In this document: positions 2,766-21,579 of the stretch, in pieces | Layout of the letters: the number at the start of each line of letters is the position of its first letter | How positions within the stretch are numbered: position 1 is the first letter of the stretch | Translations under genes and position numbers: made by a program | Notes under the pieces: generated by a model | Database searches by the model: none | Seen by the model: only the letters and a program-made list of their open reading frames with translations | What the model was told of the DNA's origin: nothing | NCBI GenBank assembly: GCA_030647415.1 | Contig: JAUSKB010000021.1 | Location: 1-34,065, forward strand | Length of the DNA: 34,065 bases | Direction of reading: 5' to 3' | Source of the DNA: a bacterium | GTDB taxonomy: Bacteria > Patescibacteriota > Minisyncoccia > UBA6257 > GWB1-50-10

Positions 2766-2800
2766 AGTAGTCCGTTCAATTCGCCTCTTCGCGTTGCTCG

Positions 2801-2872
2801 TAGCCCCAGGGAGAATCGAACTCCCATTGCCGCCGTGAAAGGGCGACGTCCTGACCATTAGACGATGGGGCC
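2801..2872 (-). tRNA. tRNA-Glu(TTC)
   Basis: Acceptor GGCCCCA/TGGGGCT (G1 with U72), anticodon stem TCGCC/GGCGG around CTTTCAC (anticodon TTC), T arm GGGAG-TTCGATT-CTCCC, discriminator A, no encoded CCA. Confidence 0.93.
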
Positions 2873-3073
2873 AGTTTTCACATCAATATAACGTACTGAG
2901 GACGACAATGGCGGTTTCGTATCTTGTCCGCCGGAGGCGGATCCGCCTTTGGCGGAAAAAGCCTGTGTCCTGACCATAGATTCACCCCGTACCGATTCGC
3001 TGGCAAGCGAATCTGGTGCAGGGCGACAGGGCCAGCAACTCCCATTACACCGCACCTGCCGACAATTCGCAAC
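2873..3073. other. intergenic palindrome and tRNA-Glu-like scraps
   Basis: TCCGCCGGAGGCGGA followed directly by TCCGCCTTTGGCGGA (about 2927-2956) makes two tandem palindromes. Beyond them, GTCCTGACCAT (2967-2977), AGGGCGAC (3020-3027) and AACTCCCATT (3037-3046) are exact short matches to pieces of the neighbouring tRNA-Glu, but in the opposite order. They may be remnants; the evidence is weak. Confidence 0.4.
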
Positions 3074-4735: not shown

Positions 4736-4742
4736 ATTTTAT

Positions 4743-4748
4743 AGTATA
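4743..4748 (-). promoter_or_regulatory. -10 box placing the transcript start at the ATG
   Basis: TATACT on the minus strand with 7 bases to the start codon at 4735; no ribosome binding site fits, so the mRNA is probably leaderless. Confidence 0.5.
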
Positions 4749-4811
4749 ACAAACTTTGTCACATCAGCGATGCAATTATCTATGCACAGCGATACTCTGC
4801 TGGTGGTATAT

Positions 4812-4934
4812 TTTAAAATCCTAAATTCTAATTTCTAAATTCTAAACAATACCAAAATCCTAAATTCTAAACGATTCGTTTTGAACATTCGAATTTAGAA
4901 TTTGTTTAGAGTTTAGTGCTTCGTGCTTAGAGTT
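4812..4934. repeat. AT-rich degenerate CTAAATTCTAA repeat block
   Basis: Copies of CTAAATTCTAA recur in the left half, including AAAATCCTAAATTCTAA at both ends of it (about 4815 and 4854). Inverted copies (TTTAGAATTTGTTTAGAG) occupy the right half, so the block can fold back on itself. It sits directly after the mltG stop and is far more AT-rich than the neighbouring genes. Confidence 0.7.
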
Positions 4935-5927: not shown

Positions 5928-8623
5928 AGGGACGCGACTGGGGCAGGCCGCGACCGGCGGACCGTGCGGTATCGCCCGAAAAGCTTCCGAAGCTCCTCGA
6001 GTACCAGCACCGAACTTGCCACACCGACGATGAGGAGCCAGTCGGTCGCCGTGAGCGGGACGGTCATGAGATAGCGCTGCATGAACGGGTGGTAGATCGC
6101 GAATAACTGCAGGGTAACGACGATGCCAGTCGTGGCGACGAGCGCCATGTTGCGGCGCACCCGTGGAGAAAACACCGACTCGTCGTTCGACCTGCAATTC
6201 CATGCGTTGAACCACTGGAATACGGCGAGTGTGGTGAGCGACATAGTGAGTGCCTTACCGAACGGCCCGTCGAGATAGTAGGTAAAAACAAGAAGTGTGC
6301 CAAGCGCGATCACGAGGCCCATGAAGAGCATTCGGCGGGCGGCCGCGGCATCAAGCAGATACTTTGCCGGACGCGCGAACCTGCGCGTGAGCAATCCCTC
6401 CTCCTTCGGCTCAAGCGCCAGCGCCGCAACCAGAAACCCGTCGGTCACAAAGTTGAGCCAGATGATCTGTGCCGGCAATACAGGAAGCGGTAATCCAAGA
6501 AAGAGCGCTCCGGATATCGATAATACCTCTCCAATGCTGGTCGAAAACAGATACAGCACCACCTTTGAAATGGTACGGTAGATACTCCGTCCCTCCTCCA
6601 CCGCTGCGATGATGCTTCCGAAGTTATCGTCGAGAAGCATCAGGTCGGACGCTTCCTTCGCGACCTCGGTGCCAATTTTCCCCATCGCAACACCAAGGTC
6701 GGCTGCGGCGAGCGAGGGCGCATCATTCACGCCGTCGCCGGTCATCGCGACCACATCGCCTCGCTTGCGGAACAGTTCGATGATACGCAATTTATGCTCG
6801 GGCGTCACCCGCGCGAAAATGTTGCATACGGCGAACCGGCTGAGTAATTCGTCATCAGATAGCCGCTCAATATCGTCACCGGTGATGACATCCCCACCGC
6901 GCTGTATGCCTGCCTCGGCGGCGATGGCCCGCGCGGTGATGGTGTGATCACCGGTGATCATCACGACACGAATGCCGGCCGCGCGAGCCGCCCGAACCGC
7001 CTCGTGCACCTCCTCCCGCAATGGGTCTTTCATGCCAAAAAACCCGCAGAACGTGAGTGGCGGGAGTGTGCCGTCCGACAGAATCACCGATGGCGCGTCA
7101 TCATTTACGGCGAACGCCAGCACGCGAAGCCCGCGGCCAGAAAGTCTGGCAAATGTCGCCTCAAGGTGCTCACGGTCGATCTCGGTGAGAGTTCGCGACC
7201 CATCAATGCCCCACAGCATCGAGGAGCGGGCAAGTACCTGTTCCGGCGCCCCGACCGCAGAAAGGAAATTCTTCTTGTTAAATGTGTGGATGGTGACGTG
7301 GTACTTCGTGACGTAACTGAAGGGCAGGTCGAACAGCTTTGGGGATTCCAGTTCGTCACCCATGAAACCTATCTTGCGGCTGAACACCTCGAGTGCCGCC
7401 TCGGTGGGGTCACCAGAAACCTTCCATACCTTCGTGTCCTCCCGGTAGAACGCGTGTGCGTTCGCGCAGAATGACGCAATACGGCCTGCGACCACCAGTT
7501 CCGGATGGTTCAGTGGTTCGATGGGCGCGCCGTGTAGCAACAGCTCCCCAGTCGGCTCATACCCGCTACCCTGAACAGTGAACTGCTTCCCGTTCATAAT
7601 AACCGCCGCGAGGAGCATCTCGTTCTTCGTAAGCGTGCCAGTCTTGTCCACAGCAATGACCGATGCCTGGCCGAGCGCTTCCACGGCCTGCAACTTCTTC
7701 ACAAGCACATGGCGCTTTGTCATACGCCAGACGCCGGAGGCGAGGACGAGCGTGAGCACAACCGGTAGCCCTTCGGGGATGATGGAGACGGCGAGCGAAA
7801 CAACCGTGGCGAACATCTCCCGTAGGGGTTTCCCCATAGAGATTCCAGCGACAAAGAGCGATGTGGTAATTGTGAGCGCGGCGATAATGATTACTCGCGA
7901 CAGGAAGCGGATGTTCTGCTTCAGTGGCATCTCGGTGTCGATTGCGGCAATGGTCTTCGATATTCTCCCGATTTCCGTGTCGATACCGGTCGCAACAATG
8001 ATTGCCGTACCGTTTCCCGCGACGACGGTGGTGCCCTTGAACACCATATTCTTCCGTTCGACAACCGGCAGGTCGCCGTCCGGAAGGTCGGCTGCAGTCT
8101 TCGCGACGCCAGTTGATTCACCGGTTAAGCTCGCCTCATCAGTGCGGAGCGCGTTCGCGGCGATGAGCCGGGCGTCCGCGGGCACCCTGTCGCCTTCCTG
8201 GACCGTCACGATGTCGCCTGCAACGATCTCCGTGTCGGGTATGACTATAAGCGACCCGTCCCGACGAACTGCAGCGGAGGTCTCCACGAACCTCTTGAGA
8301 GCGGCAAGTGTGTGTTGCGCCTTGCCCTCCTGGACTGTACCGACGATCGCATTGAATAGGAGTACGAGACCGATAACCACTGCATCTGTCGTCTCGCCCA
8401 TGAGCGACACGACGACGGCCGCCGCGAGGAGGATATAGATGAGCGGGCTCAAAAACTGCCGGAGGAATATAGCGGGGAGGCCCGGCACCGTGGGTTCCGG
8501 GAGCGCGTTCGGGCCGCGCAGGGAAAGCCGCCGTGCGGCCTCGGCGGCAGTAAGACCCCGCTCGTCGGTATCAAGCTGTTGGAACAACTCTGCAACACTC
8601 ATCGTGTACCATCGTGCTTCCAT
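5924..8623 (-). CDS. P2A-type cation-transporting P-type ATPase (Ca2+-ATPase-like)
   Basis: 899 residues, full length. It has the cation-ATPase N-terminal domain (1-75), the actuator TGES loop (167-170), the M4 PEGLP motif (283-287), phosphorylation site DKTGTLT (Asp at about 326), a GDPTEAAL nucleotide-domain motif, the hinge TGDGVNDAP, and C-terminal helices. M4 PEGLP, M5 IGEV and M6 NFVTDG match the calcium-site residues of SERCA-like pumps except that the Asn normally three residues before the M5 Glu is Ser here. Calcium export is therefore the best guess, with Mn2+ possible. It is the first gene of an operon with mltG. A TAGAAT box 9 bases before the ATG predicts a very short leader. Confidence 0.92.
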   Translation of the reverse strand: MEARWYTMSVAELFQQLDTDERGLTAAEAARRLSLRGPNALPEPTVPGLPAIFLRQFLSPLIYILLAAAVVVSLMGETTDAVVIGLVLLFNAIVGTVQEGKAQHTLAALKRFVETSAAVRRDGSLIVIPDTEIVAGDIVTVQEGDRVPADARLIAANALRTDEASLTGESTGVAKTAADLPDGDLPVVERKNMVFKGTTVVAGNGTAIIVATGIDTEIGRISKTIAAIDTEMPLKQNIRFLSRVIIIAALTITTSLFVAGISMGKPLREMFATVVSLAVSIIPEGLPVVLTLVLASGVWRMTKRHVLVKKLQAVEALGQASVIAVDKTGTLTKNEMLLAAVIMNGKQFTVQGSGYEPTGELLLHGAPIEPLNHPELVVAGRIASFCANAHAFYREDTKVWKVSGDPTEAALEVFSRKIGFMGDELESPKLFDLPFSYVTKYHVTIHTFNKKNFLSAVGAPEQVLARSSMLWGIDGSRTLTEIDREHLEATFARLSGRGLRVLAFAVNDDAPSVILSDGTLPPLTFCGFFGMKDPLREEVHEAVRAARAAGIRVVMITGDHTITARAIAAEAGIQRGGDVITGDDIERLSDDELLSRFAVCNIFARVTPEHKLRIIELFRKRGDVVAMTGDGVNDAPSLAAADLGVAMGKIGTEVAKEASDLMLLDDNFGSIIAAVEEGRSIYRTISKVVLYLFSTSIGEVLSISGALFLGLPLPVLPAQIIWLNFVTDGFLVAALALEPKEEGLLTRRFARPAKYLLDAAAARRMLFMGLVIALGTLLVFTYYLDGPFGKALTMSLTTLAVFQWFNAWNCRSNDESVFSPRVRRNMALVATTGIVVTLQLFAIYHPFMQRYLMTVPLTATDWLLIVGVASSVLVLEELRKLFGRYRTVRRSRPAPVASL

Positions 8624-8632
8624 GTGATTTCT

Positions 8633-8638
8633 ATTCTA
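8633..8638 (-). promoter_or_regulatory. -10 box of the ATPase-mltG operon
   Basis: TAGAAT with 9 bases to the ATG at 8623; -35 not convincing. The transcript would start within about 3 bases of the start codon. Confidence 0.45.
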
Positions 8639-8764
8639 CCAGAAAAATTCGATGACCCGTGCACATCTGGAGCGGTGAGGAACACGGTACTGGCACGCGC
8701 TCACAGTATCCGAAGTAGACCAGCTAGTACACCAAAGAACGAGGTTTGTTACAAACGCGGGGGT

Positions 8765-8929
8765 TCAGTGGCTCAACCTATATCCAAGGTAGATGCCGAG
8801 GAGTCCCCCGATCCCCGAAAACGCTATTGATGAGAGTGAGAAGGTATCCCCGCCCCACAGGAGCGGGACAAACCCGCCGACGAGCGAACCGAGTATCATG
8901 CCAATCCACGTGAGTGACCGGGAGCCCAT
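8765..8929 (-). CDS. small two-TM membrane protein
   Basis: A 54-residue protein starting MGSRSLTWIGM. Two Gly-rich membrane segments (about residues 5-22 and 30-49) are joined by a GGDTFSLSS loop; this fold occurs in a widespread small membrane family of unknown function. An upstream in-frame ATG at 8956 would add nine residues, but a TTGCTG-N16-TATGAT promoter ends 6 bases before the 8929 ATG and would place the transcript start downstream of the longer start, so I choose 8929. Confidence 0.65.
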   Translation of the reverse strand: MGSRSLTWIGMILGSLVGGFVPLLWGGDTFSLSSIAFSGIGGLLGIYLGYRLSH

Positions 8930-8935
8930 TCGGTT

Positions 8936-8963
8936 ATCATAACGCCAGAAAACCATCCAGCAA
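8936..8963 (-). promoter_or_regulatory. promoter of the small membrane protein gene
   Basis: -35 TTGCTG (8958-8963), 16-base spacer, -10 TATGAT (8936-8941), then 6 bases to the ATG. Confidence 0.5.
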
Positions 8964-8983
8964 AGAGATAGTTTTCTAACGTT

Positions 8984-9007
8984 GCGTCACCGCCTCTGGC
9001 GGGACGC
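8984..9007 (-). terminator. possible terminator of the restriction operon
   Basis: GCGTC and CCGCC pair with GGCGG and GACGC around a TCT loop, with one bulged A. It lies 70 bases after the stop of the last operon gene; the T-run on the minus strand is poor, so the call is tentative. Confidence 0.4.
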
Positions 9008-9077
9008 GAGATTTTCTAAGCTCGTAAACTCGCTAACAAAATCTACGCGGTGCCTTTTGGTTAAAATCCGAACTTTT

Positions 9078-9647
9078 TTATCGCAAACTCATACTATGTT
9101 TTCTCAGTTCGACTTTGACCCCTTGATAATCCGGAAACATGCCGGCGACCAGTTTCCAAAATCTTTTCGAGTGGTTGAATTCTTTAAGGTGGCAGAGTTC
9201 GTGAACAATAATGTAGTCCTGAGCCTTTTCGGGTAAAAACATAATCTTGTAATTGAAATTAAGGTTCGCCTTTCGCGAACAACTGCCCCAGCACGTCTTC
9301 TGGTTCTTAATACTGATTTTGTTGTATCGGTGTCCGTGCTCGTTGGCAAAATGTTTGACCTTCCCTTGAACGAGCGCGAGGGCATTCTCTTTGTATTTGA
9401 GATAATCCTCGTAGCTGTATCGCGCAACCGGCTTGCCTTCAAACTGTTTGAAAAATGCCAGCTTCGAAAATAGCCACTCGGTTTTCTCCCGAATAAATCG
9501 CTCGGCAACGGTTTCCCGAAGATCGTGCGGCGTTGTTACCACAATGGATCCATCGCAATACACCGCAAGACGCATGCGGCGCGCCCGTTTGCTTTTGCGG
9601 AGCGTGTAGGCGACTTTCTTATTTTGCAATGTAATCTGTTTTTTCAT
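9078..9647 (-). CDS. YgjP-like zinc metallopeptidase, last gene of the type I R-M operon
   Basis: 189 residues, PF01863-type (YgjP/SprT-like metallopeptidase). The zinc site HELCH is at about 149-153 with the downstream FNHSKRFW (His at 159) as third ligand; the conserved KTCWGSCS motif is at 117-124. Enzymes of this family often sit at the 3' end of type I restriction operons; their substrate there is unknown. The start is one base after the hsdR stop, so the gene is almost certainly cotranslated. Length is slightly below the usual 220-240 residues; both motifs are intact. Confidence 0.88.
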   Translation of the reverse strand: MKKQITLQNKKVAYTLRKSKRARRMRLAVYCDGSIVVTTPHDLRETVAERFIREKTEWLFSKLAFFKQFEGKPVARYSYEDYLKYKENALALVQGKVKHFANEHGHRYNKISIKNQKTCWGSCSRKANLNFNYKIMFLPEKAQDYIIVHELCHLKEFNHSKRFWKLVAGMFPDYQGVKVELRKHSMSLR

Positions 9648-9648
9648 G

Positions 9649-12561
9649 TCAGAATTTCTTGATTACGATATCAATGAGACGATTCAGATATTTATGGAAG
9701 TCGTTGACCTTTATCCTGTCCTTGTATTCTTTAAGCACCAATTCCTGAATAATGCGCTTGGCTTCCTTCAAAAACTCGTCCCGCTTGGAAGATTCTTGCC
9801 AGCCCTCATCAAGCGCCTCCTCGAGTCGGCCAGCCATCTCCTTTATAAATTCACGGACTGCCTCTTTATCGCTATTAATGACAAATTCCTCCGAGATAAC
9901 GAATAGGCCGTATTCCTTAAGCGTATAGCCAAGCTCCTTGGCTTCGTCTCCCTTCTTGCGGATATCCTCAAGAAGTGTCTGATACCGCTTGATGCGTTCG
10001 GAAAGATCGATCTGATTCTGCTCGAATTCCTTCCGTATTGCGACGAGTCGCTCGCTGAATTTCTTGTATGCCGGGTTGGTATCGACGTTGATTGAGATTT
10101 CCTGCTTGAGCATCTTCTCAAGATTGAGAGCTTTTTCTTCATCGTCCATCTTGTTTAGCCGTTCCATGACATAGAGATCGTTCACGTTGAGCTCGCGGAA
10201 ATTCTTCGTGATGCCTTCGTAGTCGACTTTCTGTTGGATGAGCTGTTTCACTTTCTCGCCGTATTTCGCAAGAAGTTCCGCGTCGGATTCCTTCATTCCA
10301 TATTCTTTCTCGAAAGCGATGAATACGCTCGTGAGCCATTCGAAAATACGCACATGATTTTTCAAGAATGGATCTGGCGACAGGATTTCAAAAAGCAGCT
10401 TAAGCCGGCCGTATTTCTGTTGGAGGAATTTCTGCTTCTCGATATTGTCCGCGAATATTTTCAAACAGCGCCTGAGGTTTTCGATAGATGGATTTTCCGT
10501 GTTGATACCAACAAAAAGCGTTTTGAGCTCATCGAGAACCTCGACGAATTCCTCTTTCAGTTTGTCGATATTTATCATCGCGGAATCGACAATGCTCTCG
10601 TCGAAATTCAGCGCCCTGTGGAGACTCTTGGTGATGCCATAATAGTCGATAACCTTACCCGCGCCCTTGTTTGGATAAATGCGGTTAGTGCGCGCGATAG
10701 CTTGCAAGAGGTTATGATCCCAAAGCGGCTTATCGAGATACATCATTTGCTCTACCGGTGCATCAAAACCAGTTAAAAGCATGTCGCAGACAAGCAAAAA
10801 CTTCAGCGGACTCGCCGGATCCTTGAATTCATCGATAAGCTTCTCACGTTTCGCCTTTGTAGTATTGTATTTCCGCAATTCCTCCGGATCGATATTAGCG
10901 TCACCGGGAGAATATATCACTTCTGACCAATTTTTCGGGATTAACTCATCGAGTAGCTTCTTGTATTTCGCCGTCGCTTCACGGTCATAGCAAACAATCT
11001 GCGCCTTGAATCCTGCTGGTTCGACGTAGAGCTTAAAATGTTCAACAATGTCCCGAGCGATAGCCTGCATGCGTTTATCGAGCTTTACAATCGCTTCTTT
11101 CTTTCCGTATTTCTTTGCGATTATGTCTTTGTCTTTTTCGGTAAGATCGGCGGTAAGTTCGTCGAATTGTTTGTCGAGCTGTTCCTCGTCGATAAAGAAC
11201 TTTGAAAGCCGTGCCTCGTAGGTAACCGGCAGCGTGGCGCCGTCATCAACGGACTGCTGAATGGAATAGTAATCAAGATAACGTTCGCCTTCCTCCCCGA
11301 AATTCCGGTGCGTATTGAGCGTCACCCGATCGATCGGCGTGCCGGTGAATCCGAAGAAGAAAGCGTTGGTCATGGCACTCCGCAAATTGATCGCCGAAAT
11401 ACCTTCGTTGTCGCGGTGCGCTTCGTCCGAGAGCACAATGATATTTTCGTCAAGATTCTTCACTTCGTCGCCGAGTTCGGAGAACTTTTGGATCGTAGAA
11501 ATAAAGATGCCGCGCTCCGGCGATTGGATCTTGCGCTCAAGATCGCGCCGCGACTCCACTCGGATAACATTCTGTCCACCACAGTTGACGAATGTGTTAT
11601 AAAGCTGATCATCAAGATCAACCCGGTCCACTAAGACGAAAACCTTCGGGTTTTTAAGTTTCTTATCGAAGCGGAGTTTCCATGCAGTAAAGAACATCGT
11701 AAATGACTTGCCGGACCCCTGCGTGTGCCAGATCAAACCCCGCTTCGTTTTGCCTTGCCGTACTCGTTCCACAATTTTATTTGTTCCCCGGTACTGCATG
11801 TAACGCGTGATTTTCTTCATGGCGCCCTCTTTCTCGGTTTCAAAAAGAATAAAATTCCCAACAATATCGAGCAGGCGGTCATGCGAAAGAAGCGCGGCCA
11901 AAGTTACCTCCAGCCCTTCTCCGTATTTCTTTTCCAATTCTTCCTCGCGCCACTCGAGAAAATACTGCGTTTGGGCGTACGTCGCTCCATATACGGTCTT
12001 TAAACCATCGGAGGCGATATTGAAACAGTTCGACCAAAACAACTTGAATGCGTTCCGCTCGTATCGTTTAATCTGTCCGACGGCATTGGAATAATCGATG
12101 CTGCTTGCGGCGGTCGGACTTTTCGCTTCGATATCAACGATTGGCAACCCATTCAAAAACACCATCACATCAGGCCGAATATTTTCGGAGTTACCCTCGA
12201 AATAAAACTGATTGGTTACGACGAAGTGGTTGTTTTCAGGATGGTTGAAGTCAACGATAAAATAATCGCGCATCTTTCCGGTTTCTGGATCCTTCAAGTT
12301 GACGCCGTTTCGGAGGACATTTAAAAATGCCTCATTCGAATCAAGCTTTTTTACTTCGCGGACAACCGCTTGCGCTTCAGTATCATCAACGATCCCGTTT
12401 ATTTTCTTTACTGCCGCAGTAAGTAGTGGTGTGATAATATATTCGTTCTCAAATTCTCGCAGTTTCGCAAACTCCTGCGGTTTTATGTATTCATAACCAA
12501 GCTCCTCTTTGAGGAACTTGATAATGTGATTTTCTATTGTATATTGTTCGTTGAATTTCAT
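9649..12561 (-). CDS. hsdR: type I restriction enzyme, R subunit HsdR
   Basis: 970 residues, full length. The N-terminal PD-(D/E)xK nuclease shows Asp131 (RPDVMVF) and Glu145-x-Lys147 (IEAKSP). The SF2 motor follows: Walker A QGSGKS (281-286), DEAH-type SDEAHR (378-383), motif III GFTGTP, and the GFDAP and AIARTNRIYP motifs V/VI; the C-terminal third is helical and charged, the part that docks on HsdM. With HsdM and HsdS it would translocate and cut DNA lacking the cognate adenine methylation. The start overlaps the hsdS stop by ATGA. It appears catalytically intact. Confidence 0.95.
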   Translation of the reverse strand: MKFNEQYTIENHIIKFLKEELGYEYIKPQEFAKLREFENEYIITPLLTAAVKKINGIVDDTEAQAVVREVKKLDSNEAFLNVLRNGVNLKDPETGKMRDYFIVDFNHPENNHFVVTNQFYFEGNSENIRPDVMVFLNGLPIVDIEAKSPTAASSIDYSNAVGQIKRYERNAFKLFWSNCFNIASDGLKTVYGATYAQTQYFLEWREEELEKKYGEGLEVTLAALLSHDRLLDIVGNFILFETEKEGAMKKITRYMQYRGTNKIVERVRQGKTKRGLIWHTQGSGKSFTMFFTAWKLRFDKKLKNPKVFVLVDRVDLDDQLYNTFVNCGGQNVIRVESRRDLERKIQSPERGIFISTIQKFSELGDEVKNLDENIIVLSDEAHRDNEGISAINLRSAMTNAFFFGFTGTPIDRVTLNTHRNFGEEGERYLDYYSIQQSVDDGATLPVTYEARLSKFFIDEEQLDKQFDELTADLTEKDKDIIAKKYGKKEAIVKLDKRMQAIARDIVEHFKLYVEPAGFKAQIVCYDREATAKYKKLLDELIPKNWSEVIYSPGDANIDPEELRKYNTTKAKREKLIDEFKDPASPLKFLLVCDMLLTGFDAPVEQMMYLDKPLWDHNLLQAIARTNRIYPNKGAGKVIDYYGITKSLHRALNFDESIVDSAMINIDKLKEEFVEVLDELKTLFVGINTENPSIENLRRCLKIFADNIEKQKFLQQKYGRLKLLFEILSPDPFLKNHVRIFEWLTSVFIAFEKEYGMKESDAELLAKYGEKVKQLIQQKVDYEGITKNFRELNVNDLYVMERLNKMDDEEKALNLEKMLKQEISINVDTNPAYKKFSERLVAIRKEFEQNQIDLSERIKRYQTLLEDIRKKGDEAKELGYTLKEYGLFVISEEFVINSDKEAVREFIKEMAGRLEEALDEGWQESSKRDEFLKEAKRIIQELVLKEYKDRIKVNDFHKYLNRLIDIVIKKF

Positions 12562-13769
12562 ATGGTTCGTTTTTCGCCGCTCAGTAAATCACGCACAAGA
12601 CCTTTCTTTAGGAGAGTTAGTCCAACCTTTAGCTTCTGGTTGATTGAAATTTTTTCATCAATAACAGAAAGAATTTCAGCAATTTTTTCCTGCTCACTTT
12701 TAGGAGGAACTCCAAAGCTTAAACCTAATAAACTCGACTTGTTTAATATACTCATTGTCCCGCCATGACTATGTTGTGTTAACTGTTTTCGGATTAAGTC
12801 AGAATCAAGTAAGTAGGCAACAAACAACGAGGATGTTTTGTTCTTGTCTGGTGTGATCTTCAGAAGGCGTGGGTTTATAATTCCGGGTTTGAATTTTTCC
12901 GGAACGATGAGAATCTTTCCTATGGTCCCAACCAAGCTAATAAGCACATCTCCTGCTTTTATCTTAAATGCCTTAAGTTCTTGGTACTTTTCTTCGTCAA
13001 TGTAGTAATCACCAACTGAAGCATCCCCAGAGATAACTTGCTCTTGTCCATAAATTTTATATCCGTTTGCAACATAGAAGCTTTTTTTTAGACTTGATCC
13101 AAAAGGACCGGGCTTTATTGCATTTTTATCAGAAGAATCAGCTAGGTCTGTAAAGCTTCCCACTTCCCAGCCCTCAGGAATGTTGCCGAGTTTGGTTTTT
13201 TTGAATTTAGTATGCCCGATGCCACGAGTAAAGAGCTTCTCCATTAACCCTCTTTTAAGTTTCTCTGTGGTGTCGATAATATCGACGGTCTTTTGGATTT
13301 CCGTATCCATAGTTACCAAAATCTCCGCAATCTTTTTTTGTTCGGCTAGTGGAGGAACGGGTACCTCCATATCTTGATATTGAGATATGTAGAATCGCTT
13401 ATGACTTCCCGTTGGGAAGTTGATGGATTTCATCTTTTCAAAAACGAACCTCAAGTCAACATTTGAGCTTTTGTTTTTTAAAATCTTGATGGCCGATGAT
13501 TTTACTTTGAATGGAAAATCGACATATTTGCAGTCCGTAGTAAAATCATCAAAAATTATTGCCGGGATATCTTTATATATCCCAAAGTCCTCGTTCGTGT
13601 AGCCCAAAATGAAAGATTTATTTGCCGTAAGCACCGGCGTTTTTTCAGTATCAGCATAGCTTGTACTTTTGACAATATAGTTATCGGGGCGCTCGTAATC
13701 GAGCAGATCTTTAATTTGTTTTTGCTCCCAGCCCTTGGGAATGTTCTGTTTTTTGACGGCTGTTTTCAT
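12558..13769 (-). CDS. hsdS: type I R-M specificity subunit HsdS
   Basis: 403 residues with the usual two target-recognition domains. TRD1 (about 1-150) ends in the conserved helix PPLAEQKKIAEILVTMD, and TRD2 (about 190-370) ends in a matching KSEQEKIAEILSVID helix; these paired coiled-coil spacers set the gap between the two halves of the target. GWEQKQIKDL and GWEVGSFTDL start the two TRDs. The two TRDs differ clearly, so a bipartite asymmetric target is expected; the actual site cannot be read from sequence. ATGA overlaps join it to both neighbours. Confidence 0.94.
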   Translation of the reverse strand: MKTAVKKQNIPKGWEQKQIKDLLDYERPDNYIVKSTSYADTEKTPVLTANKSFILGYTNEDFGIYKDIPAIIFDDFTTDCKYVDFPFKVKSSAIKILKNKSSNVDLRFVFEKMKSINFPTGSHKRFYISQYQDMEVPVPPLAEQKKIAEILVTMDTEIQKTVDIIDTTEKLKRGLMEKLFTRGIGHTKFKKTKLGNIPEGWEVGSFTDLADSSDKNAIKPGPFGSSLKKSFYVANGYKIYGQEQVISGDASVGDYYIDEEKYQELKAFKIKAGDVLISLVGTIGKILIVPEKFKPGIINPRLLKITPDKNKTSSLFVAYLLDSDLIRKQLTQHSHGGTMSILNKSSLLGLSFGVPPKSEQEKIAEILSVIDEKISINQKLKVGLTLLKKGLVRDLLSGEKRTI

Positions 13770-15358
13770 TGCTTTGTTTTTATTTCCTCAACCTCAAGGT
13801 CGCCAGCGCCTATAGAATCAGCGAACTCTGAAACTTTTTTACCAATGGTATTGATGAGATAAATCCTTTTCTTTGCTCGGGTAATCGCAACAAGCATCTG
13901 ATACACCTCGCTATCAGTAACTGCTTTCTTTGTTGGGAATCTACCTTGATCAAATCCAACAAGGAAAACTACATCAGCACCAAGTCCTTTGGAATTTAGA
14001 ATGTTGCACACAGTAATATCGAGATTGCAAAGAGGGCGTGCCAGGTAAAGATTACTGCGTTTAAGCTGTTGGAACAGGAGGCTTTTCCTAACCTCTTTAT
14101 CAGAAACTGTTCCACTTTCAATATCGGTCTCTAGGTCACTAATCGCTTGATCTTTGATCTCTTGTAGTTTTTTCGGGGTGCCGTTCATAGCGGCACTTAA
14201 AGTTTTTGAATTACTAATGTGTTTCTTTTTTACGCTCTCCTCTGTAGGATTACCCAATATTCTCCATCCCAGTGTGGATGATTCGTCTTTCGCGATAAGC
14301 TTATAAGCATTCGTAACCTCGTTGCGAATATTCAATATTTCACCGTCACCTCTATAGCCAACATTTTTAAAGCCGTAATTTTTTAATTGTGAAGCAACGG
14401 TTTTTAAAAGTGCTTCACAGCTCCGTCCTTCACCAATTACAAGCACTTCTTTGATTTTTTGGTTCTCAACAATTTCCTCGAGCTCACTGCGTATCTTGTA
14501 AGCAATCATTCCCACTGGGCAATCTTTTATGAGATGGATTTTGGGATTCGCCGTTGAGTCATCACTCTTGTCGGGCACATAGCAAATATAATCCTTTTGG
14601 ATTCTTTTTTTCGCAGGATCATTTAGATTAAATTTAGAAACGAGGCCGTGGGAATACTTGATGATTACTTCCGTGCAGCGAGAACAGAAACGAAGTGTGT
14701 GACTTTCAAAATGCTTATTGCTCGGATCATACTTCTCTCTAATGAAAGAAGGAGATGATCCCTTGAAACCATATAGGGCTTGATCGTCGTCTCCGACGAT
14801 AACGATCTCGTTCTTTTGTGCCAACAAATCAACAAGCTCTGACTCTACTGCATTAAAATCTTGATACTCATCAACCAAAATGAGATCATAAACGGGAATT
14901 TTATTCGGATCCTCTTTGCATATTTTAGCTGCGTAGTGAACTACATCGGCATCACCTACTGCTTGGTAATGCTTTGTCTTGCGTTCATAATTTTCGTCCC
15001 CAATTTCAAATTTTGTCACCCCTTCAGTTTTTAGATCTTTCTCTATCAATTCATATATCCTTGGGTAATAATTCCAACCCCTGCATTGACTAAGCACAAA
15101 ACTTCTTGCAAAGCCATGCATGGTCATGGTTTCTGCAAGGCCGCACAAATCATCAGCTAAGGTATCTCCTAGCTTTCCGATAAAGGTAATAGCCAGAAAA
15201 TTAGCCTTCCCCTCAGCTCGTTTCTTTTTGATAAGCTCGCTAAATAAATAGCTTTTGCCGGTGCCGGGGCCAGCAACGATGACCTTCCTCGGGTGCACCG
15301 AGTTTTTAATCGTATTTACCTCATTATTTCTTTCTGTTTTATGATCAATCATTACCAT
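13766..15358 (-). CDS. UvrD-like superfamily 1 helicase embedded in the type I R-M operon
   Basis: About 530 residues. Walker A AGPGTGKS is close to the N terminus (about 29-36 from this start). Motif II is VDEYQDF, followed by GDDDQALYGFKGSSPS (motif III) and, near the C terminus, VFLVGFDQGRFP and LVAITRAKKRIYL (motifs V/VI). It is shorter than UvrD/Rep (about 720), with reduced 2B insertions, nearer the size of GajB-type helicases of Gabija defence. It lies between hsdM and hsdS, overlapping hsdM by 14 bases and hsdS by ATGA. The start may also be the ATG at 15352; the TTG at 15364 is less likely. No partner OLD nuclease is present. Confidence 0.88.
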   Translation of the reverse strand: MVMIDHKTERNNEVNTIKNSVHPRKVIVAGPGTGKSYLFSELIKKKRAEGKANFLAITFIGKLGDTLADDLCGLAETMTMHGFARSFVLSQCRGWNYYPRIYELIEKDLKTEGVTKFEIGDENYERKTKHYQAVGDADVVHYAAKICKEDPNKIPVYDLILVDEYQDFNAVESELVDLLAQKNEIVIVGDDDQALYGFKGSSPSFIREKYDPSNKHFESHTLRFCSRCTEVIIKYSHGLVSKFNLNDPAKKRIQKDYICYVPDKSDDSTANPKIHLIKDCPVGMIAYKIRSELEEIVENQKIKEVLVIGEGRSCEALLKTVASQLKNYGFKNVGYRGDGEILNIRNEVTNAYKLIAKDESSTLGWRILGNPTEESVKKKHISNSKTLSAAMNGTPKKLQEIKDQAISDLETDIESGTVSDKEVRKSLLFQQLKRSNLYLARPLCNLDITVCNILNSKGLGADVVFLVGFDQGRFPTKKAVTDSEVYQMLVAITRAKKRIYLINTIGKKVSEFADSIGAGDLEVEEIKTKQ

Positions 15359-17036
15359 ATCCAAGGTCTTTTAAATAACCGACGACTTTTTTGTCTATCT
15401 CTCCGCGCTCTTTCTCCAATGCGATAAGTTCCTTATGTACTGAGGAGACATCAATATCTTCTTCTTTATCACTGTTCTCTATATAACGGCGCACATTGAG
15501 GTTGTATTCGTTCTCCTTAATTTCTTTGAGGTCAACGACTCGGGCATAACCTTCAACATCTTTGTAGTTGTCGTAGGCCTTTACGATTTTTTGTATATCT
15601 TGAACACGGAGTGAATTCTGATTCTTGTCTTCAGAAAAATCTTTCTCGGCATCAATGATAAACACTCTATTTTTGTGGCCCTCTGGCTTGTTCTTGTTGA
15701 AAATGAGAATCGCTGCCGGAATACCCGTACCATAGAAAAGTTTGGACGGAAGGGCGATAACTGCCTCAATTAGATCGTGCTTGAGAATTTGCTCTCGGAT
15801 GCGTCCCTCTGCGCCACCCCGGAAAAGAACGCCGTGCGGTAGAACAATGCCCGCTCGGCCGTTCGAATTCATTGATTTGATGATATGGAGCACAAAAGCA
15901 TAGTCGGCATTACTCTTTGGTGGCAATTCGTACCCTTCCAATCGGCCATATCTTTCTTTAAACATTTCGCTCTCCCAATCGCTGATTGAGTAGGGTGGGT
16001 TTGCCACGCAGATATCGAATGTTTTTAGCGTTCCATTCGGATTCAAAAATTGAGGGTTTGCCAGTGTGTCGCCGCGTTGAATATCGGCGGCATCAAGACC
16101 GTGGAGAAACATGTTGATTTTTGCAATCGCAAATGTGCCGATATTTATTTCCTGCCCATAGAGGTAAAGTGTACGGGCAACTTTTTCACCCTCTTTTTCT
16201 TTCAAATGATGATACGCCTCGAGTAGGAAACCGCCCGATCCAACGGTGGGATCATATATGTGATCTTTCTTGTGCGGATTTAATATTTGAATAATGACGC
16301 GCTCAACTTCGCGTGGCGTGTAAAACTCACCGCCTTTTTTCCCTGCGTCGGCCGCGAACTGCTTGATGAGATATTCGTATGCATCTCCGAGGAGATCGGA
16401 GTTTATGTAGGTATCGCCAAAATTATACTGCGAGAAATGATTTATTAAACGCTGAGTAGTTTCGTTTGGAAATTTATCTTTATGCGCGAAATCAAGATCA
16501 TCAAAAATCTTGTCGAGCTTCGGACTATTCGTATTTGTGAGCTTGTCAAAAATCCCGTTAAGCTTGGGGCCGATGTTTTCCGCCTGCTCCTCAATAGCAG
16601 ACCACCGACAATCCTGTGGAACTTGAAAGCGATGATTGTAATCGGCTCGTGCGATAGTCTCATCTTTGTATTCTTCCATGACACGCTTATATTCCTCGTC
16701 CCATACATCGCTGATACGCTTGTAGAAAAGAAGTCCGAATATATATTTTTTGTAGTCCGAGCTATCGATCTTGCCGCGGAGAATATCAGCACTCTTCCAG
16801 AGGAACTGTTCGAGCTGCGGCAGGGTGAGTTTGCTGCCCATCTTGTCCACGATGGCCTGAATATCTTGAGGGCGATATTTGCGGTCACCGCGCTTACCGG
16901 CCCGCAGGGGCACTAAAATGCCTTCCTTTCCCCAGTTTCGGAGGGTATCGGGGTGAATATTGAAAATCTCCGCTACCTGGCTGATAGAGAGCAATTCCGG
17001 CTTTCCCTTAAGTTTTGCCTGTATGTCTTTACGCAT
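15345..17036 (-). CDS. hsdM: type I DNA methyltransferase HsdM with N-terminal MerR-like HTH
   Basis: 563 residues from MRKDIQAKLK. Residues 15-62 are a MerR/excisionase-type HTH (SISQVAEIFNIHPDTLRNW, then KRGDRKYRPQDIQAIV). The remainder is a normal HsdM: N-terminal helical domain (about 70-225), SAM motif DPTVGSGG (262-269), catalytic NPPY (346-349), and a C-terminal helix that contacts HsdS. It methylates adenine at the HsdS target. The HTH suggests the enzyme may also bind its own promoter. The start is chosen because a TTGACT-N17-TATAAT promoter lies just upstream, leaving about 5 leader bases; a start at 17096 would lie upstream of the promoter. Confidence 0.93.
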   Translation of the reverse strand: MRKDIQAKLKGKPELLSISQVAEIFNIHPDTLRNWGKEGILVPLRAGKRGDRKYRPQDIQAIVDKMGSKLTLPQLEQFLWKSADILRGKIDSSDYKKYIFGLLFYKRISDVWDEEYKRVMEEYKDETIARADYNHRFQVPQDCRWSAIEEQAENIGPKLNGIFDKLTNTNSPKLDKIFDDLDFAHKDKFPNETTQRLINHFSQYNFGDTYINSDLLGDAYEYLIKQFAADAGKKGGEFYTPREVERVIIQILNPHKKDHIYDPTVGSGGFLLEAYHHLKEKEGEKVARTLYLYGQEINIGTFAIAKINMFLHGLDAADIQRGDTLANPQFLNPNGTLKTFDICVANPPYSISDWESEMFKERYGRLEGYELPPKSNADYAFVLHIIKSMNSNGRAGIVLPHGVLFRGGAEGRIREQILKHDLIEAVIALPSKLFYGTGIPAAILIFNKNKPEGHKNRVFIIDAEKDFSEDKNQNSLRVQDIQKIVKAYDNYKDVEGYARVVDLKEIKENEYNLNVRRYIENSDKEEDIDVSSVHKELIALEKERGEIDKKVVGYLKDLGYGND

Positions 17037-17048
17037 ATTGTTATTCCC

Positions 17049-17077
17049 ATTATAATCGATCTGTTTTTTAAAGTCAA
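17049..17077 (-). promoter_or_regulatory. strong promoter of the hsd operon
   Basis: TTGACT (17072-17077), exactly 17 bases, TATAAT (17049-17054). The predicted transcript start is about 5 bases before the hsdM ATG, so the whole five-gene operon would begin with an almost leaderless message. Confidence 0.75.
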
Positions 17078-17083
17078 TACCTT

Positions 17084-17103
17084 CATAGGTTATCATAGGT
17101 TAT
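17084..17103. promoter_or_regulatory. tandem 10-bp repeat next to the hsd promoter, possible operator
   Basis: CATAGGTTAT is repeated twice head to tail, ending 7 bases upstream of the -35 box. The period is one helical turn. It is a candidate binding site for the HTH of the downstream HsdM. Confidence 0.5.
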
Positions 17104-17201
17104 ATAGCATTCTACAGGAGAAATAACAGCCTTTTTGAGTCCTTTGTTATCAATTTTGTGCGCTCTGGACTCCTTCGGGGCTTCGCGTCATCTCTTGTGT
17201 C

Positions 17202-18530
17202 ATGAGTACCCAACCAAAGGGGGCGCAGATCGGGACCCCCGCAACAAGCCCGATCCAGATAAAGGTCCGGTACTGCTTGTATGCAAGGAAATCAACGGAG
17301 TCCGAGGAACAGCAGGTGCTTTCCATAGATAGCCAAATCAAGGAGATGGCGAAGACCGCGGAACGGGACGAGCTCGAAATCGCGGAGATTCGGAAGGAGA
17401 GCCACTCGGCAAAAGCGACCGGCCAGAGAGCCGTCTTCAATGAGATTATAGTCGACATACGACTTGGCAAATTCAACGGTCTTTTGACCTGGGCGCCGGA
17501 CAGGCTCGCGAGGAACGCGGGCGACCTCGGGGCGCTTGTGGACCTCATGGACCAGAAGGTCCTCCTTGAGATACGGACGTATGGCCAGCGGTTTACCGAT
17601 TCTCCGAATGAGAAGTTCCTTCTCATGATCTTGGGCTCCCAAGCAAAGCTCGAGAACGACAACCGAGGCGTGAACGTGAAACGAGGATTGCGGACAAGGT
17701 GCGAAATGGGACTCAGGCCCGGAGTCGCGCCGGTGGGCTATAACAATGAAAAGCGCATGGACCGAAAATGCCATGCGGTCGTGGACACAATGCGAGCGCC
17801 TGTCATCAAGCAGATGTTCGAGAAGGTCGCGAACGAGAAATGGAGCGGCAGACGCATACACCAATGGCTGAAGTTCGAGCTCAACTTCAAGAGCCGGGGC
17901 AATAAGAACATGACCTTGAGCAGCGTCTACGTGGTGTTGCAAAATCCATTTTACCACGGCGTTTTCGAATATCCGGAGAAGAGCGGAAACTGGTACGAGG
18001 GCAAGCATCAGCCGCTCATCACCAAGGAATTGTTCGACAAGGCGCAGGAGCAACTCAAGCGCGACCGCATCGTGCGCTCCGATATCAAGGAATTCGCCTT
18101 CACCAAGCTCATGGCGTGCGGCCTATGCGGATCCGGTATCTCTGCTGACGAGAAGTTTAAGAAGCTCAAGGACGGCACCTCGAACCGGTACGTCTACTAC
18201 GGCTGCACACGCGCGCGTGACAAGGACTGCAAGAACGGCTACGTGCGCGAAGAGGAACTGGTCAGCCAGACAGTAAAAATTATGGACCAGATAGACCTTA
18301 ACCAAATCAGCATGCGGGAAAAGTTCGAGGCGGAAGTAGAGCGCATGCGGAAATTCCAACGCGCATTTGCCGGTACGGCAGCTGATACAAAGCCGCAAAA
18401 AGAAATCGACCTGCGCGACTACGCGAAGTACCTGCTCAAGGAAGGCAGTGTGACGGAGAAGCGCGAGTTATTGCTATGCATCAAAAGCAAGTTAGTGCTC
18501 ACGAAAGGGGTGGTGACGCTGGCACATTAA
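17202..18530 (+). CDS. large serine recombinase
   Basis: 442 residues. The N-terminal resolvase domain has the nucleophile in YARKSTESEEQQ (Ser at about 31) and conserved Arg-rich motifs such as WAPDRLARN; then the Recombinase domain (about 170-290, RPGVAPVGY... NPFYHGVF) and a zinc ribbon with CGLCGSG and a later CTRARDKDC. A short helical tail follows. The size suits a recombinase of a small integrative element. It is divergent from the hsd operon and convergent with the ATPase gene, whose stop is only 2 bases away. No ribosome site is visible. It may have delivered the island or act on its flanks. Confidence 0.92.
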   Translation: MSTQPKGAQIGTPATSPIQIKVRYCLYARKSTESEEQQVLSIDSQIKEMAKTAERDELEIAEIRKESHSAKATGQRAVFNEIIVDIRLGKFNGLLTWAPDRLARNAGDLGALVDLMDQKVLLEIRTYGQRFTDSPNEKFLLMILGSQAKLENDNRGVNVKRGLRTRCEMGLRPGVAPVGYNNEKRMDRKCHAVVDTMRAPVIKQMFEKVANEKWSGRRIHQWLKFELNFKSRGNKNMTLSSVYVVLQNPFYHGVFEYPEKSGNWYEGKHQPLITKELFDKAQEQLKRDRIVRSDIKEFAFTKLMACGLCGSGISADEKFKKLKDGTSNRYVYYGCTRARDKDCKNGYVREEELVSQTVKIMDQIDLNQISMREKFEAEVERMRKFQRAFAGTAADTKPQKEIDLRDYAKYLLKEGSVTEKRELLLCIKSKLVLTKGVVTLAH

Positions 18531-18532
18531 TC

Positions 18533-21028
18533 CTAGGATGTTTTCGTAAGTTTTCTGATTTCTCGTAGAGTGGAAATAGCTTGGCGAATTCTTTGAACGT
18601 TTGGCTGATACGTCTTCGGAGTATGGTGGGAGTCATTAGCATTTACAAAGACGGCATACAACCGGTCCACCTCATCCGTGGCCACCCCCGCCTCAAGAAG
18701 GATGCTCCGTACATCTTTTTTGTTCATGTTGTGCGGGCTTGTCTGGCGCCCAAGCTTATCCATAGCAACCGCAGAGGCTAGTTGGTACGCGGCGAGTCGT
18801 ATCTCCTCCTCCGCTTGTTGTAGGCGAACAGAAGTAGCGGTTACAGCGCTGACGATTGACTCAGCCTCGCGCAGACGGTCATCAAGTGACGACCACTCCA
18901 GTGCCCGAACATTCGGCCCACTTTGGGCATAGCCTGTTATTTCATAGCGAACACCGTTTAGCGACCTACAACCATCGCAAACTTGTTTTGCCCACGTCCC
19001 TTTGTGAGTCAGTATAATAACCTGCCTGCCTTCGATTTCGATTAGGCTCCGGATAACGTTTATAAACTGGGTTTCGTGCTCGTCATCCCAAGATTGAATG
19101 GGGTCGTCAATTATGAGAAACACCCAAGGCCCCGCCCTGCGGAGTGCGCTGGCGATACTTACGCACAAGCCCAGTGCGTTGAGCTTCGATTCGCTCAACG
19201 AGGAAACCGCGCTCGCGAGTTCGACCCCATACGACTCAGCTTTCACGGAAAGGCGGCGGCTCTTGAAATCGCCGTCCTTGGTGCGTTCCATGGCAAAACC
19301 TGAGAAATGCACATCAGGATCACCGGTCGTCTTAATCATGGAGTACCACTTCATCACCGAAGCGGTCAGGTCAGTATTCATCGCATTATCCATAACCTCA
19401 GCCAGCGTCTGCTCCGAATATTTTTTTAAGTCCCTTAGACTGTCGAGGCCGTCACGTAAATGCAATGCCTTCTTCACGACGGCCCTCTTCTCGAAAAGCT
19501 CGACAGCGAGCGAAACCTCAGTTGTTCCGGCAAGCATGTCGACTGCTTGACGCAAAAGATTGGCTGGGCCAGTGAGAACTGGTTCAAGCTCTTTGATTTT
19601 TATTGCTATATCATCTGCGACCGTAAGATAACTCTGTAGTGCGCTGGCTAAAGTTTCCGCGTCTGAAAGGTTTGGGGTACCGCTTTGTAGAGAAGTCTGA
19701 CATTTTACCAGAGCGGTTTCAGCTTTATTCACCTCTTCAAACAATCGGGCGCAAAGAGAATTCGCAGTGGTAGCGGATGTGCGAATAATCACAACGCTGG
19801 CCGTTTCTGAACCACCCAGAAGTTCAGTTATTTTTGTCTCATTCTCTGGATCTGCTGAAGACACCAAGCCAACAAGAGGTTTTTGCGTTAGCTCAGTGTG
19901 TTGCTTAAGAGCCCCTTTTATTTCCTCCAGTGCGTGGTTTACACGCGAACAAACTTGTTCCCGGTCACCGTCTTTCTTTACCTCCGCACTGACCGTCGTA
20001 TGACGGCTATGGATGGCTCTGCCGAGATCGTCATTAACTGACTGCAAACAGAGAGGACATGTGCTGGGCTCCTCATTCAGTAGTTGCGTACCGAGTTCGA
20101 GTAGCTGCGCCTCTTTTTGTAATTTTGCCGCAACACCCTGTACACAGAGACGCGCGTAGTCTTCGAGGAATTTTATGTCGACGGTCGCTGAAAGGGTTCG
20201 TTGCGCCGATATCAGACGACTTTCTTCCTCCGAAGTGAGAACACCAATAACTACACTCCCGGCATAAACTTTTCCCGCCGCTGCTATGCGAGCCGCAGTA
20301 AGAAGCTTGAAATGGTCGCCGATTTTTCCGATACCTAGAAACTTTTCTGACCAGCTACTGATTACTTCATACGCCGCGTCCACCCCTGCCGAACCTTTTT
20401 TGAAATCCGCGCTAGCGGTTTTTAATTCCGGAACCGCAACCATCTTCGTCTCTAAAGAAGCAAGGTTGTTCAATAGACGTTGGCTGTCTTCGGGGAGGTT
20501 GACGGTCGGTTTTGTACATAGGCTAAGAATTGCACGGAACGCATCGTCCACCTCGTTCATGCCTAACAACTGAGCAAATCCTTGGAATCTCTCAGATGGA
20601 GGAACTAGCAACAGGTACTTGAGAGCGTGCTGAAGCACAAATGGCCTGGCAGATATTAGCGACTCCTGATGAAACGGCCATTCTTTGATCCCTACGCCGT
20701 CGACAAGGCGCCTTACCGTTCCGTCTTGGTCGAGCTCTATGCGCAACAAAATATTATTTTGTCCTGGCACCGAAAAGTTTGCTTCTATGTACGCGGCCTG
20801 ATTAGTTGGATAGTGGCGATTACGGTATGAGTCTTTGTATTCATCCTTGAAGTCGGCCTTATCGACTTTGGAAGTGGTGCCATAAAGAAGGAACTCAAAC
20901 GCTTCCGAAATACTCGTCTTGCCGTAGCTGTTTGCAGCAGAAATGACAGTTAGTCGCTCATCAAAATCAACCACGCGCTCTTCGTTGAATCCTCGAAAAC
21001 CAGCAACTTTAAGCTGTTTAATCTGCAT
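18533..21028 (-). CDS. Rad50/RloC-like ABC ATPase with CxxC hook
   Basis: 831 residues. The N terminus is an AAA_23/SMC-type ATPase start (GFRGFNEERVVDFDERLTVI) with a divergent Walker A AANSYGKTS (31-39). A CPLC motif lies at 324-327 between helical arms, like a half zinc hook. The signature-like SSLSESKLNALGLCVSIASAL and Walker B FLIIDDPIQSWDD come at about 640-675, then VIILTHKGTW. The helical C terminus contains NANDSHHT, similar to the Asn/Ser-His tails of some defence ATPases; whether it is a nuclease active site is unproven. RloC, SbcC and Lamassu-type SMCs are the relatives to test. It overlaps its upstream partner by 11 bases. Confidence 0.8.
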   Translation of the reverse strand: MQIKQLKVAGFRGFNEERVVDFDERLTVISAANSYGKTSISEAFEFLLYGTTSKVDKADFKDEYKDSYRNRHYPTNQAAYIEANFSVPGQNNILLRIELDQDGTVRRLVDGVGIKEWPFHQESLISARPFVLQHALKYLLLVPPSERFQGFAQLLGMNEVDDAFRAILSLCTKPTVNLPEDSQRLLNNLASLETKMVAVPELKTASADFKKGSAGVDAAYEVISSWSEKFLGIGKIGDHFKLLTAARIAAAGKVYAGSVVIGVLTSEEESRLISAQRTLSATVDIKFLEDYARLCVQGVAAKLQKEAQLLELGTQLLNEEPSTCPLCLQSVNDDLGRAIHSRHTTVSAEVKKDGDREQVCSRVNHALEEIKGALKQHTELTQKPLVGLVSSADPENETKITELLGGSETASVVIIRTSATTANSLCARLFEEVNKAETALVKCQTSLQSGTPNLSDAETLASALQSYLTVADDIAIKIKELEPVLTGPANLLRQAVDMLAGTTEVSLAVELFEKRAVVKKALHLRDGLDSLRDLKKYSEQTLAEVMDNAMNTDLTASVMKWYSMIKTTGDPDVHFSGFAMERTKDGDFKSRRLSVKAESYGVELASAVSSLSESKLNALGLCVSIASALRRAGPWVFLIIDDPIQSWDDEHETQFINVIRSLIEIEGRQVIILTHKGTWAKQVCDGCRSLNGVRYEITGYAQSGPNVRALEWSSLDDRLREAESIVSAVTATSVRLQQAEEEIRLAAYQLASAVAMDKLGRQTSPHNMNKKDVRSILLEAGVATDEVDRLYAVFVNANDSHHTPKTYQPNVQRIRQAISTLREIRKLTKTS

Positions 21029-21233
21029 TGGTTATTTCAGCGAAAATATCCCGGAGCTCGGACTCCATGGCGCTTGCTGGGTCGCCTTGGCGACAAGCTT
21101 TCAATAGGCGCAGATGAATAGGATCTGTGGTTTTCCGCTCTACGGCATTTAGAAATTGCTCCAAGGCAGGCCCAACTACGGATTCAGGAGTTGGGTTAAC
21201 GGGGAGGTTGTCTTCTTTGGGCACATCCGACAT
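21018..21233 (-). CDS. 71-residue partner of the ATPase, unknown function
   Basis: A small acidic protein: a Pro-rich N terminus (residues 1-22) then two predicted helices (about 24-45 and 52-70) rich in Glu and Leu. GGAG lies 12 bases before the ATG. Its 3' end overlaps the ATPase gene by 11 bases, so the two are translationally coupled and their products likely interact. I recognise no family. It could be a small subunit comparable in position to accessory components of SMC-type defence systems, but no sequence similarity is claimed. Confidence 0.65.
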   Translation of the reverse strand: MSDVPKEDNLPVNPTPESVVGPALEQFLNAVERKTTDPIHLRLLKACRQGDPASAMESELRDIFAEITNAD

Positions 21234-21314
21234 ATCATCATATTGCTCCTCGATAGTACTATTAGCAAAACCGCCCCCGATGGGGGGGGGTCGCGTAACA
21301 CCGTCTCACGTTCC

Positions 21315-21335
21315 TGCGGAGGCGGAAGGATTGAA
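21315..21335 (-). pseudogene. remnant of the 3' end of tRNA-Ser
   Basis: Eighteen bases (TGCGGAGGCGGAAGGATT) repeat exactly the acceptor and T-arm 3' part of the intact tRNA-Ser 176 bases to the right, followed by GAAC with one base missing. The rest of the tRNA is absent. A duplicated tRNA 3' end is the usual footprint of integration at a tRNA gene. Confidence 0.65.
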
Positions 21336-21446
21336 CGCGCTCAGTCGCCTAAGGCGACTTCGCTTCTACAACCCCTCGGTTTTAGTGTTTCCGCCACGGG
21401 AAACTCCCGTTTCCCGACCCCTTCCCGTTCGAATCCTCGCGCCCGG

Positions 21447-21489
21447 ATACGAATTGAGCATACCATAGTAAGGTATGCTCAATTCGTAT
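21447..21489 (-). terminator. perfect 18-bp hairpin behind tRNA-Ser(GCT)
   Basis: Arms 21447-21464 and 21472-21489, loop of 7 bases, no mismatch, starting 3 bases after the tRNA end. It lacks a T-run, so it may be a processing or termination structure. Confidence 0.6.
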
Positions 21490-21492
21490 TTG

Positions 21493-21579
21493 CGGAGGCG
21501 GAAGGATTCGAACCTTCGGACCGGTTTCCCGGTCGACATCTTAGCAGGATGCCGCTTTAAGCCACTCAGCCACGCCTCC
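21493..21579 (-). tRNA. tRNA-Ser(GCT)
   Basis: Acceptor GGAGGCG/CGCCTCC, anticodon stem GCATC/GATGT around CTGCTAA (anticodon GCT), a long variable arm (ACCGG-GAAA-CCGGT) as expected for Ser, T arm GAAGG-TTCGAAT-CCTTC, discriminator G, no encoded CCA. Confidence 0.94.

Follow-up and report, generated by a model that had tools for sequence, protein, structure and literature searches.

A mobile type I R-M operon that serves as a chassis with exchangeable cargo, in which a compact UvrD-like helicase is one such cargo, is probably the best description of the gene run analysed here. Our data show, at the sequence level, the gene content, intact motifs, exchange of the genes in one slot, horizontal spread and a repeated association of the helicase clade with methyltransferases. 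The window, i.e. the whole stretch of 34,065 nucleotides that was analysed, is an entire contig of a CPR-type genome (964 kb, 38 contigs). On its minus strand, genes encoding a MerR-HTH-HsdM, the compact UvrD-like helicase, HsdS, HsdR and YgjP form a tight run in which, from the ORF coordinates, neighbours overlap by 14, 4 and 4 bases and the single gap is 1 base.

Gene content of the operon

Family assignments were obtained with Pfam, NCBIfam and PADLOC profiles, and gave the following features.

9078..9647, minus strand: YgjP/M48-like zinc metallopeptidase, last gene of the operon (PF01863, 2e-43; HELCH motif)
9649..12561, minus strand: hsdR, type I restriction motor-nuclease subunit (TIGR00348, 1.1e-167)
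12558..13769, minus strand: hsdS, specificity subunit with two Methylase_S stretches (PF01420, 8e-31)
13766..15358 from ATG (15364 from TTG), minus strand: embedded compact SF1A UvrD-like helicase, in the slot between hsdM and hsdS (PF00580, 8e-22)
15345..17096 (start may be 17036), minus strand: hsdM with N-terminal MerR-type HTH (PF02384 (N6_Mtase), 4e-112; HsdM_N; PF13411, 5.5e-10; TIGR00497)
17049..17077, minus strand: sigma-70-like promoter match TTGACT-17-TATAAT, 11/12 (consensus match only)
17202..18530, plus strand: large serine recombinase (PF00239/PF07508/PF13408, Resolvase/Recombinase)
18533..21028, minus strand: SMC/Rad50-like ATPase (831 aa) with CPLC hook motif, LmuB-like (AAA_15, 1e-11; AAA_23; SMC_N; PADLOC LmuB, 1.7e-29)
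21018..21233, minus strand: 71-aa ORF overlapping the ATPase start, possible partner (no family match)
21315..21332, no strand: 18-bp copy of the tRNA-Ser 3' end, possible integration relic, with a second copy at 21491-21508 (repeat search)
21492..21579, minus strand: tRNA-Ser(GCT), integration hotspot (adjoins tRNA-Glu in relatives without the island)

The genes, coordinates, overlaps and 1-base gap given in the original prediction were reproduced by the ORFs and by the three profile collections, and the serine recombinase and the ATPase with its 71-residue ORF were found directly behind the run (17202-21233), as had been described. The promoter claimed ahead of the run was recovered as a consensus match; since this match falls inside the longest hsdM frame, hsdM may start at the second ATG. 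The presence of hsdM, hsdS and hsdR in one operon, together with the NPPY, SAM, DEAH and EAK motifs, identifies a type I R-M system, with predicted N6-adenine methylation and ATP-dependent cleavage, and the catalytic motifs of HsdR, HsdM and YgjP were intact in a motif check. Since the operon is conserved in other genomes, it is no chance arrangement. Its G+C content is 39-49% across 9-17 kb vs 56-63% just upstream, a low value that speaks for mobility. Near the contig end (32916-33300), two near-identical 29-bp repeats with a palindrome (TGACTATGTTCTTAAGAACATAGTCACGT) lie 346 bp apart.

The R-M and YgjP parts are ordinary, and ygjP directly behind hsdR is established as common in unrelated organisms. 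It was located within the type I locus in 6 of the 9 plasmid loci read, the hosts being Runella, Acetobacter (whose gene table is incomplete and lacks the hsdR entry), Vibrio, Providencia, Klebsiella and the archaeon Halobaculum, and the EPEC RRDM island also has an M48 metallopeptidase at its end (PMC12255303). The association of YgjP with type I loci that had been asserted is thus borne out, as is the description of a type I R-M operon with an embedded helicase and a terminal YgjP, the helicase being its notable part.

The embedded helicase

The helicase gene is a non-hsd gene between hsdM and hsdS, in the same orientation and with overlaps of 14 and 4 bases, the former given by the likelier ATG (15358; 530 aa, against 532 aa from the TTG). 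All SF1A helicase motifs are intact in the alignment, and no nuclease domain was recognised by Pfam or by alignment. The top PADLOC matches are GajB (1e-27), whereas the structural model (mean pLDDT 82.7) resembles UvrD/PcrA/Rep structures, with DrUvrD as the best PDB match (TM 0.71), more than GajB (TM 0.37). The helicase is rare, being found in 5/384 genomes of the class and 5/380 of the phylum, the window's own genome included in both, and it is absent from the eight other sampled members of the window's own family. An origin as a plasmid or phage gene was considered and rejected, with no plasmid match at 1e-15 and only one close viral-contig match.

Exchange between chassis and cargo

Sister operons with the same HTH-HsdM were located by HsdM searches. 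Two of them, L173 (G185) and L179 (G547), come from other families of the class and share the order recombinase, hsdM, slot, hsdS, slot, hsdR, ygjP, with amino acid identities to the window of 84.5-85% for hsdM, 81-82% for hsdR, 66-68% for ygjP and 53-63% for the recombinase; for hsdS the values are 37% (L173) and 52% (L179). The MerR-type HTH on HsdM is present in L173 as well. In both operons the slot between hsdM and hsdS is occupied by an OLD/GajA-like ATPase-TOPRIM gene, 76% identical between the two and unrelated to the helicase (the L173 protein resembles GajA/OLD/PtuA), with an additional ORF (296 or 447 aa) separating hsdS from hsdR. The DNA alignment of the window with L173 covers hsdM (15383-17038, 77%) and hsdR-ygjP (9089-12572, 72%) with nothing between, the homology ending at the end of hsdM and restarting at the start of hsdR. 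L179 also has part of hsdS in common with the window at the DNA level (72% over 557 bp), so that the helicase/OLD difference is independent of a wholesale change of hsdS. L175 (hsdM 61%, hsdR 62%) is without insertion between hsdM and hsdS; its hsdS and hsdR are separated by a DUF3644 gene and one more ORF. Among these homologous operons the embedded gene is therefore either exchanged or present in some and absent in others. The slots of more distant operons contain Thoeris ThsB-ThsA (L178), Bro-N (L176, L177) or Abi_alpha (L036). The Thoeris pair of L178 (10417-11816, a CPR genome), made of a ThsB TIR and a ThsA macro domain protein, lies between type I hsdM and hsdS.

The closest relatives of the helicase (61-64% identity; L032/L075, L038 and L039) are all in type I loci, the R-M proteins of which are only 26-45% (HsdM), 23-28% (HsdS) and, where detected, 26-34% (HsdR) identical to those of the window, the HsdR of L039 being of the EcoEI-like kind. 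Besides the helicase gene, DNA homology of the window to L038 and L168 takes in the recombinase and scattered stretches of short length, and the hsdM-hsdS junctions flanking the helicase are not covered. Since the same chassis holds other cargo and the same cargo sits in other chassis, chassis and cargo have recombined independently. The order hsdM-UvrD-hsdS-hsdR-ygjP, the conservation of which had been suggested as a check, does occur elsewhere, but was seen in one other genome only (L038, with small ORFs between); the nearest sister operons are without the helicase. The L075 locus (4617-7579) has two different hsdM genes in tandem, each approximately 42-45% identical to the window HsdM.

These loci amount to a natural experiment: on the one hand, type I operons that are near-homologous have either a helicase or an OLD nuclease embedded between hsdM and hsdS, and on the other, near-homologous helicases are found in unrelated R-M operons. 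They open two questions to direct test, namely if embedded genes need the host R-M enzyme, and for what reason a UvrD-type helicase is present in some restriction systems.

Association of the helicase clade with methyltransferases

Housekeeping UvrD is set apart in the tree from the compact helicases, which make up their own clade (29 sequences, support 100/99). Members of this clade accompany several kinds of systems: type I loci, a PLD-SNF2 helicase with a IIG-like methyltransferase in L033, L035, L046 and L054 (L051 has the methyltransferase), a methyltransferase with a DUF499/HmaC-like ATPase in L041 and L043, an EcoRI-type methyltransferase in L034, and type I with Shedu in L092. In this last locus (9026-18099), a NucS/YhcG-like nuclease, an HsdR-like gene, an HsdM-HsdS fusion, Shedu and the compact helicase form one run. 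A same-strand methyltransferase within 4 kb was counted at 21/41 helicase loci, some of them outside the 29-sequence clade, vs 0/18 housekeeping UvrD loci (Fisher p = 6.6e-5), with methyltransferase HMMs partly built from the counted neighbourhoods; a count relying on motifs only agrees (24/41 vs 1/18). For about half of the helicase relatives, no recognised methyltransferase was found within 4 kb. The helicases beside type III genes (L037, L064) belong to a separate sister lineage in the tree, and for this reason no link to type III is claimed for the clade.

Recombinase, tRNA-Ser site and second cargo

In relatives, the gene order is IF-2, tRNA-Ser(GCT), tRNA-Glu, tRNA-Arg, tRNA-Gly, and the distance from tRNA-Ser to tRNA-Glu is 2-15 bp in L130, L131 and L132 vs 18.6 kb in the window. 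The gap between the two tRNA genes of the window (2800-21579) also contains a P-type ATPase, a YceG-like gene and a TSP3-repeat gene, with host-like G+C. Since other serine recombinases abut the same tRNA-Ser in L133-L135, tRNA-Ser(GCT) is a hotspot. Relatives of the window's recombinase at 63-66% identity were found in L032/L075, L038, L094, L179 and L181, and this recombinase clade lies near tRNA-Ser in L038 (GCT), L094 (TGA) and L181 (TGA). In L181, where the recombinase abuts tRNA-Ser(TGA), there is an hsdM fragment with an identity of 98.7% at the protein level and 88% at the DNA level, indicating recent transfer. The search for a full attachment-site pair gave only a near copy of the end of tRNA-Ser, at a distance of 176 bp, and no far copy at up to 3 mismatches. 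With regard to an SCC-type cassette, which has a Ccr recombinase and flanking att sites, the recombinase matches a CcrB-like profile at 118 bits, far under the 900-bit cut-off, and the repeat of the tRNA-Ser end occurs on one side only. The L094 locus (8941-15349), perhaps a CPR prophage or satellite, combines a distant compact helicase and a recombinase of the same type with tRNA-Ser(TGA), a terminase-like gene and a fusion of ParB with a methyltransferase. The window and its relatives show that the tRNA-Ser sites of small CPR genomes harbour defence modules that are mobile and exchangeable.

The ATPase has LmuB as its best PADLOC match, many other SMC-like families matching more weakly. Plasmids of Nitrosospira and Bradyrhizobium have a similar layout, in which a 65-66-aa ORF immediately precedes an ATPase that is either 817 aa long or split (65+817 aa in Nitrosospira); the small plasmid proteins are only 24-25% identical to the 71-aa protein of the window, so it is by layout that a partnership is supported. 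Relatives of the ATPase were found in none of 59 relatives, as one weak match among 287 phylum genomes, and on two plasmids. No LmuA effector was found, the ATPase being flanked only by the 71-aa ORF and the recombinase and the plasmid layouts likewise having none; without LmuA, a Lamassu identity of the pair was rejected. The pair had been put forward as part of the system, but it is absent from every sister island examined and sits beyond the recombinase relative to the R-M operon, which makes it a separate and independent second cargo.

Possible role of the helicase

In the model that we favour, the constant parts would be the HTH-HsdM fusion, HsdS, HsdR and YgjP, beside a serine recombinase of the tRNA-Ser-adjacent type, and the hsdM-hsdS and hsdS-hsdR intervals would be variable slots, the first of which is here taken by the compact UvrD-like helicase. 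The HTH on HsdM probably allows self-regulation of the operon, and the helicase would be co-expressed with the R-M enzyme from one promoter. It may act on DNA that the type I enzyme has cut or that is stalled on this enzyme, either by unwinding cleaved phage DNA for exonucleases or by clearing stalled or self-damaged DNA, and restriction would then be more efficient or safer, while YgjP could trim or remove restriction subunits as a proteolytic control. Such a job of the helicase within restriction is possible, and we propose it tentatively. A broader role, in which the compact UvrD clade would be a system-independent restriction helicase, i.e. a mobile subunit that plugs into methyltransferase systems of the type I, type IIG-like and HMA-like kinds and has a shared job, the processing of restricted or stalled DNA, on which many restriction systems depend, seems unlikely at present.

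Several other explanations could be issued. The main alternative is that the helicase could be an autonomous defence gene, acting alone or with some partner, that uses the operon for expression only and leaves restriction untouched, in agreement with the self-contained slot neighbours found elsewhere (Thoeris in L178, OLD nuclease in L173/L179) and with TgvAB, which protects from inside a type I operon without HsdR activity (PMC11411939). However, neither a nuclease nor a toxin domain is recognisable in the helicase, and its clade recurs beside methyltransferases, which suggests a dependence on the R-M machinery, and we regard autonomy as rather unlikely. It is improbable that a gene serving the replication or maintenance of the mobile element landed in the operon by chance. 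The window, L032/L075, L038 and L094 do have this recombinase type near the helicase, and in L094 tRNA-Ser, helicase, recombinase and terminase are grouped, but in the window and L039 the helicase lies within an R-M operon with overlapping genes, elsewhere it is inside other methyltransferase operons without this recombinase, and the recombinase occurs in L173, L179 and L178, where the helicase is absent.

The GajB matches, together with the GajA-like protein in the same slot of the sister operons, would also fit half of a Gabija-like system, the GajA-like nuclease being lost or encoded elsewhere. The two halves were never found together, no compact helicase being detected in G185 and no OLD-like gene in G000 (one distant OLD-like query), and the model is closer to UvrD than to GajB, so that this explanation is very improbable. 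Hardly credible is the proposal of one new combined defence system made of R-M, helicase, protease, ATPase and 71-aa protein. The tight operon, the neighbouring position of a protease and two ATPases and the joint presence of helicase and YgjP in L038 speak for it, but fixed parts are contradicted by L173 and L179, which hold an OLD/TOPRIM nuclease in the helicase position and an insertion between hsdS and hsdR, and none of the sister islands read has the ATPase pair.

Comparison with known systems

One of the closest known systems is the EPEC RRDM island, RptR-HsdM-HsdS-DarTG2-HsdR-M48 (PMC12255303), which is likewise a horizontally acquired type I operon with an embedded defence module, a metallopeptidase after hsdR and transcriptional control at the front. 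In contrast to the window, it carries a toxin-antitoxin pair, placed between hsdS and hsdR, instead of a helicase between hsdM and hsdS, and its regulator is a separate gene, whereas the HTH of the window is fused to HsdM. The Patescibacteria nzgw456 island, compared here by its description (PMC12455944), is also a horizontally acquired type I R-M island in CPR and has an extra ATP-dependent endonuclease gene, but no embedded helicase is reported there.

GajB of Gabija is a compact SF1A UvrD-like helicase in defence and the best PADLOC sequence match, but no GajA partner was found and the fold of the window helicase is nearer to UvrD/PcrA. A Gabija identity was rejected, with no TOPRIM gene among the Pfam-annotated neighbours and none in G000 (one OLD-like query). 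The second cargo shares with Lamassu LmuB an SMC-like ATPase and a zinc-hook-like CPLC, but has a 71-aa partner in place of an LmuA effector gene.

Defence genes embedded in type I operons have been described before, as the PDC/HEC candidates of Payne 2024, taken here as cited in PMC12988326 and PMC12255303, and as TgvAB in the hsd operon of V. cholerae (PMC11411939). As in these cases, an extra gene lies inside the hsd operon, and the sister operons of the window hold PDC-S13 and PDC-S19 genes; the helicase differs in having no PADLOC PDC model among the matches listed and in recurring in several restriction types. In the literature covered, mostly open and with the Payne preprint represented by papers that cite it, no paper was found describing a UvrD-type helicase in this role. 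A helicase inside a type I operon, spread across restriction types, looks like a new variant of such embedded genes.
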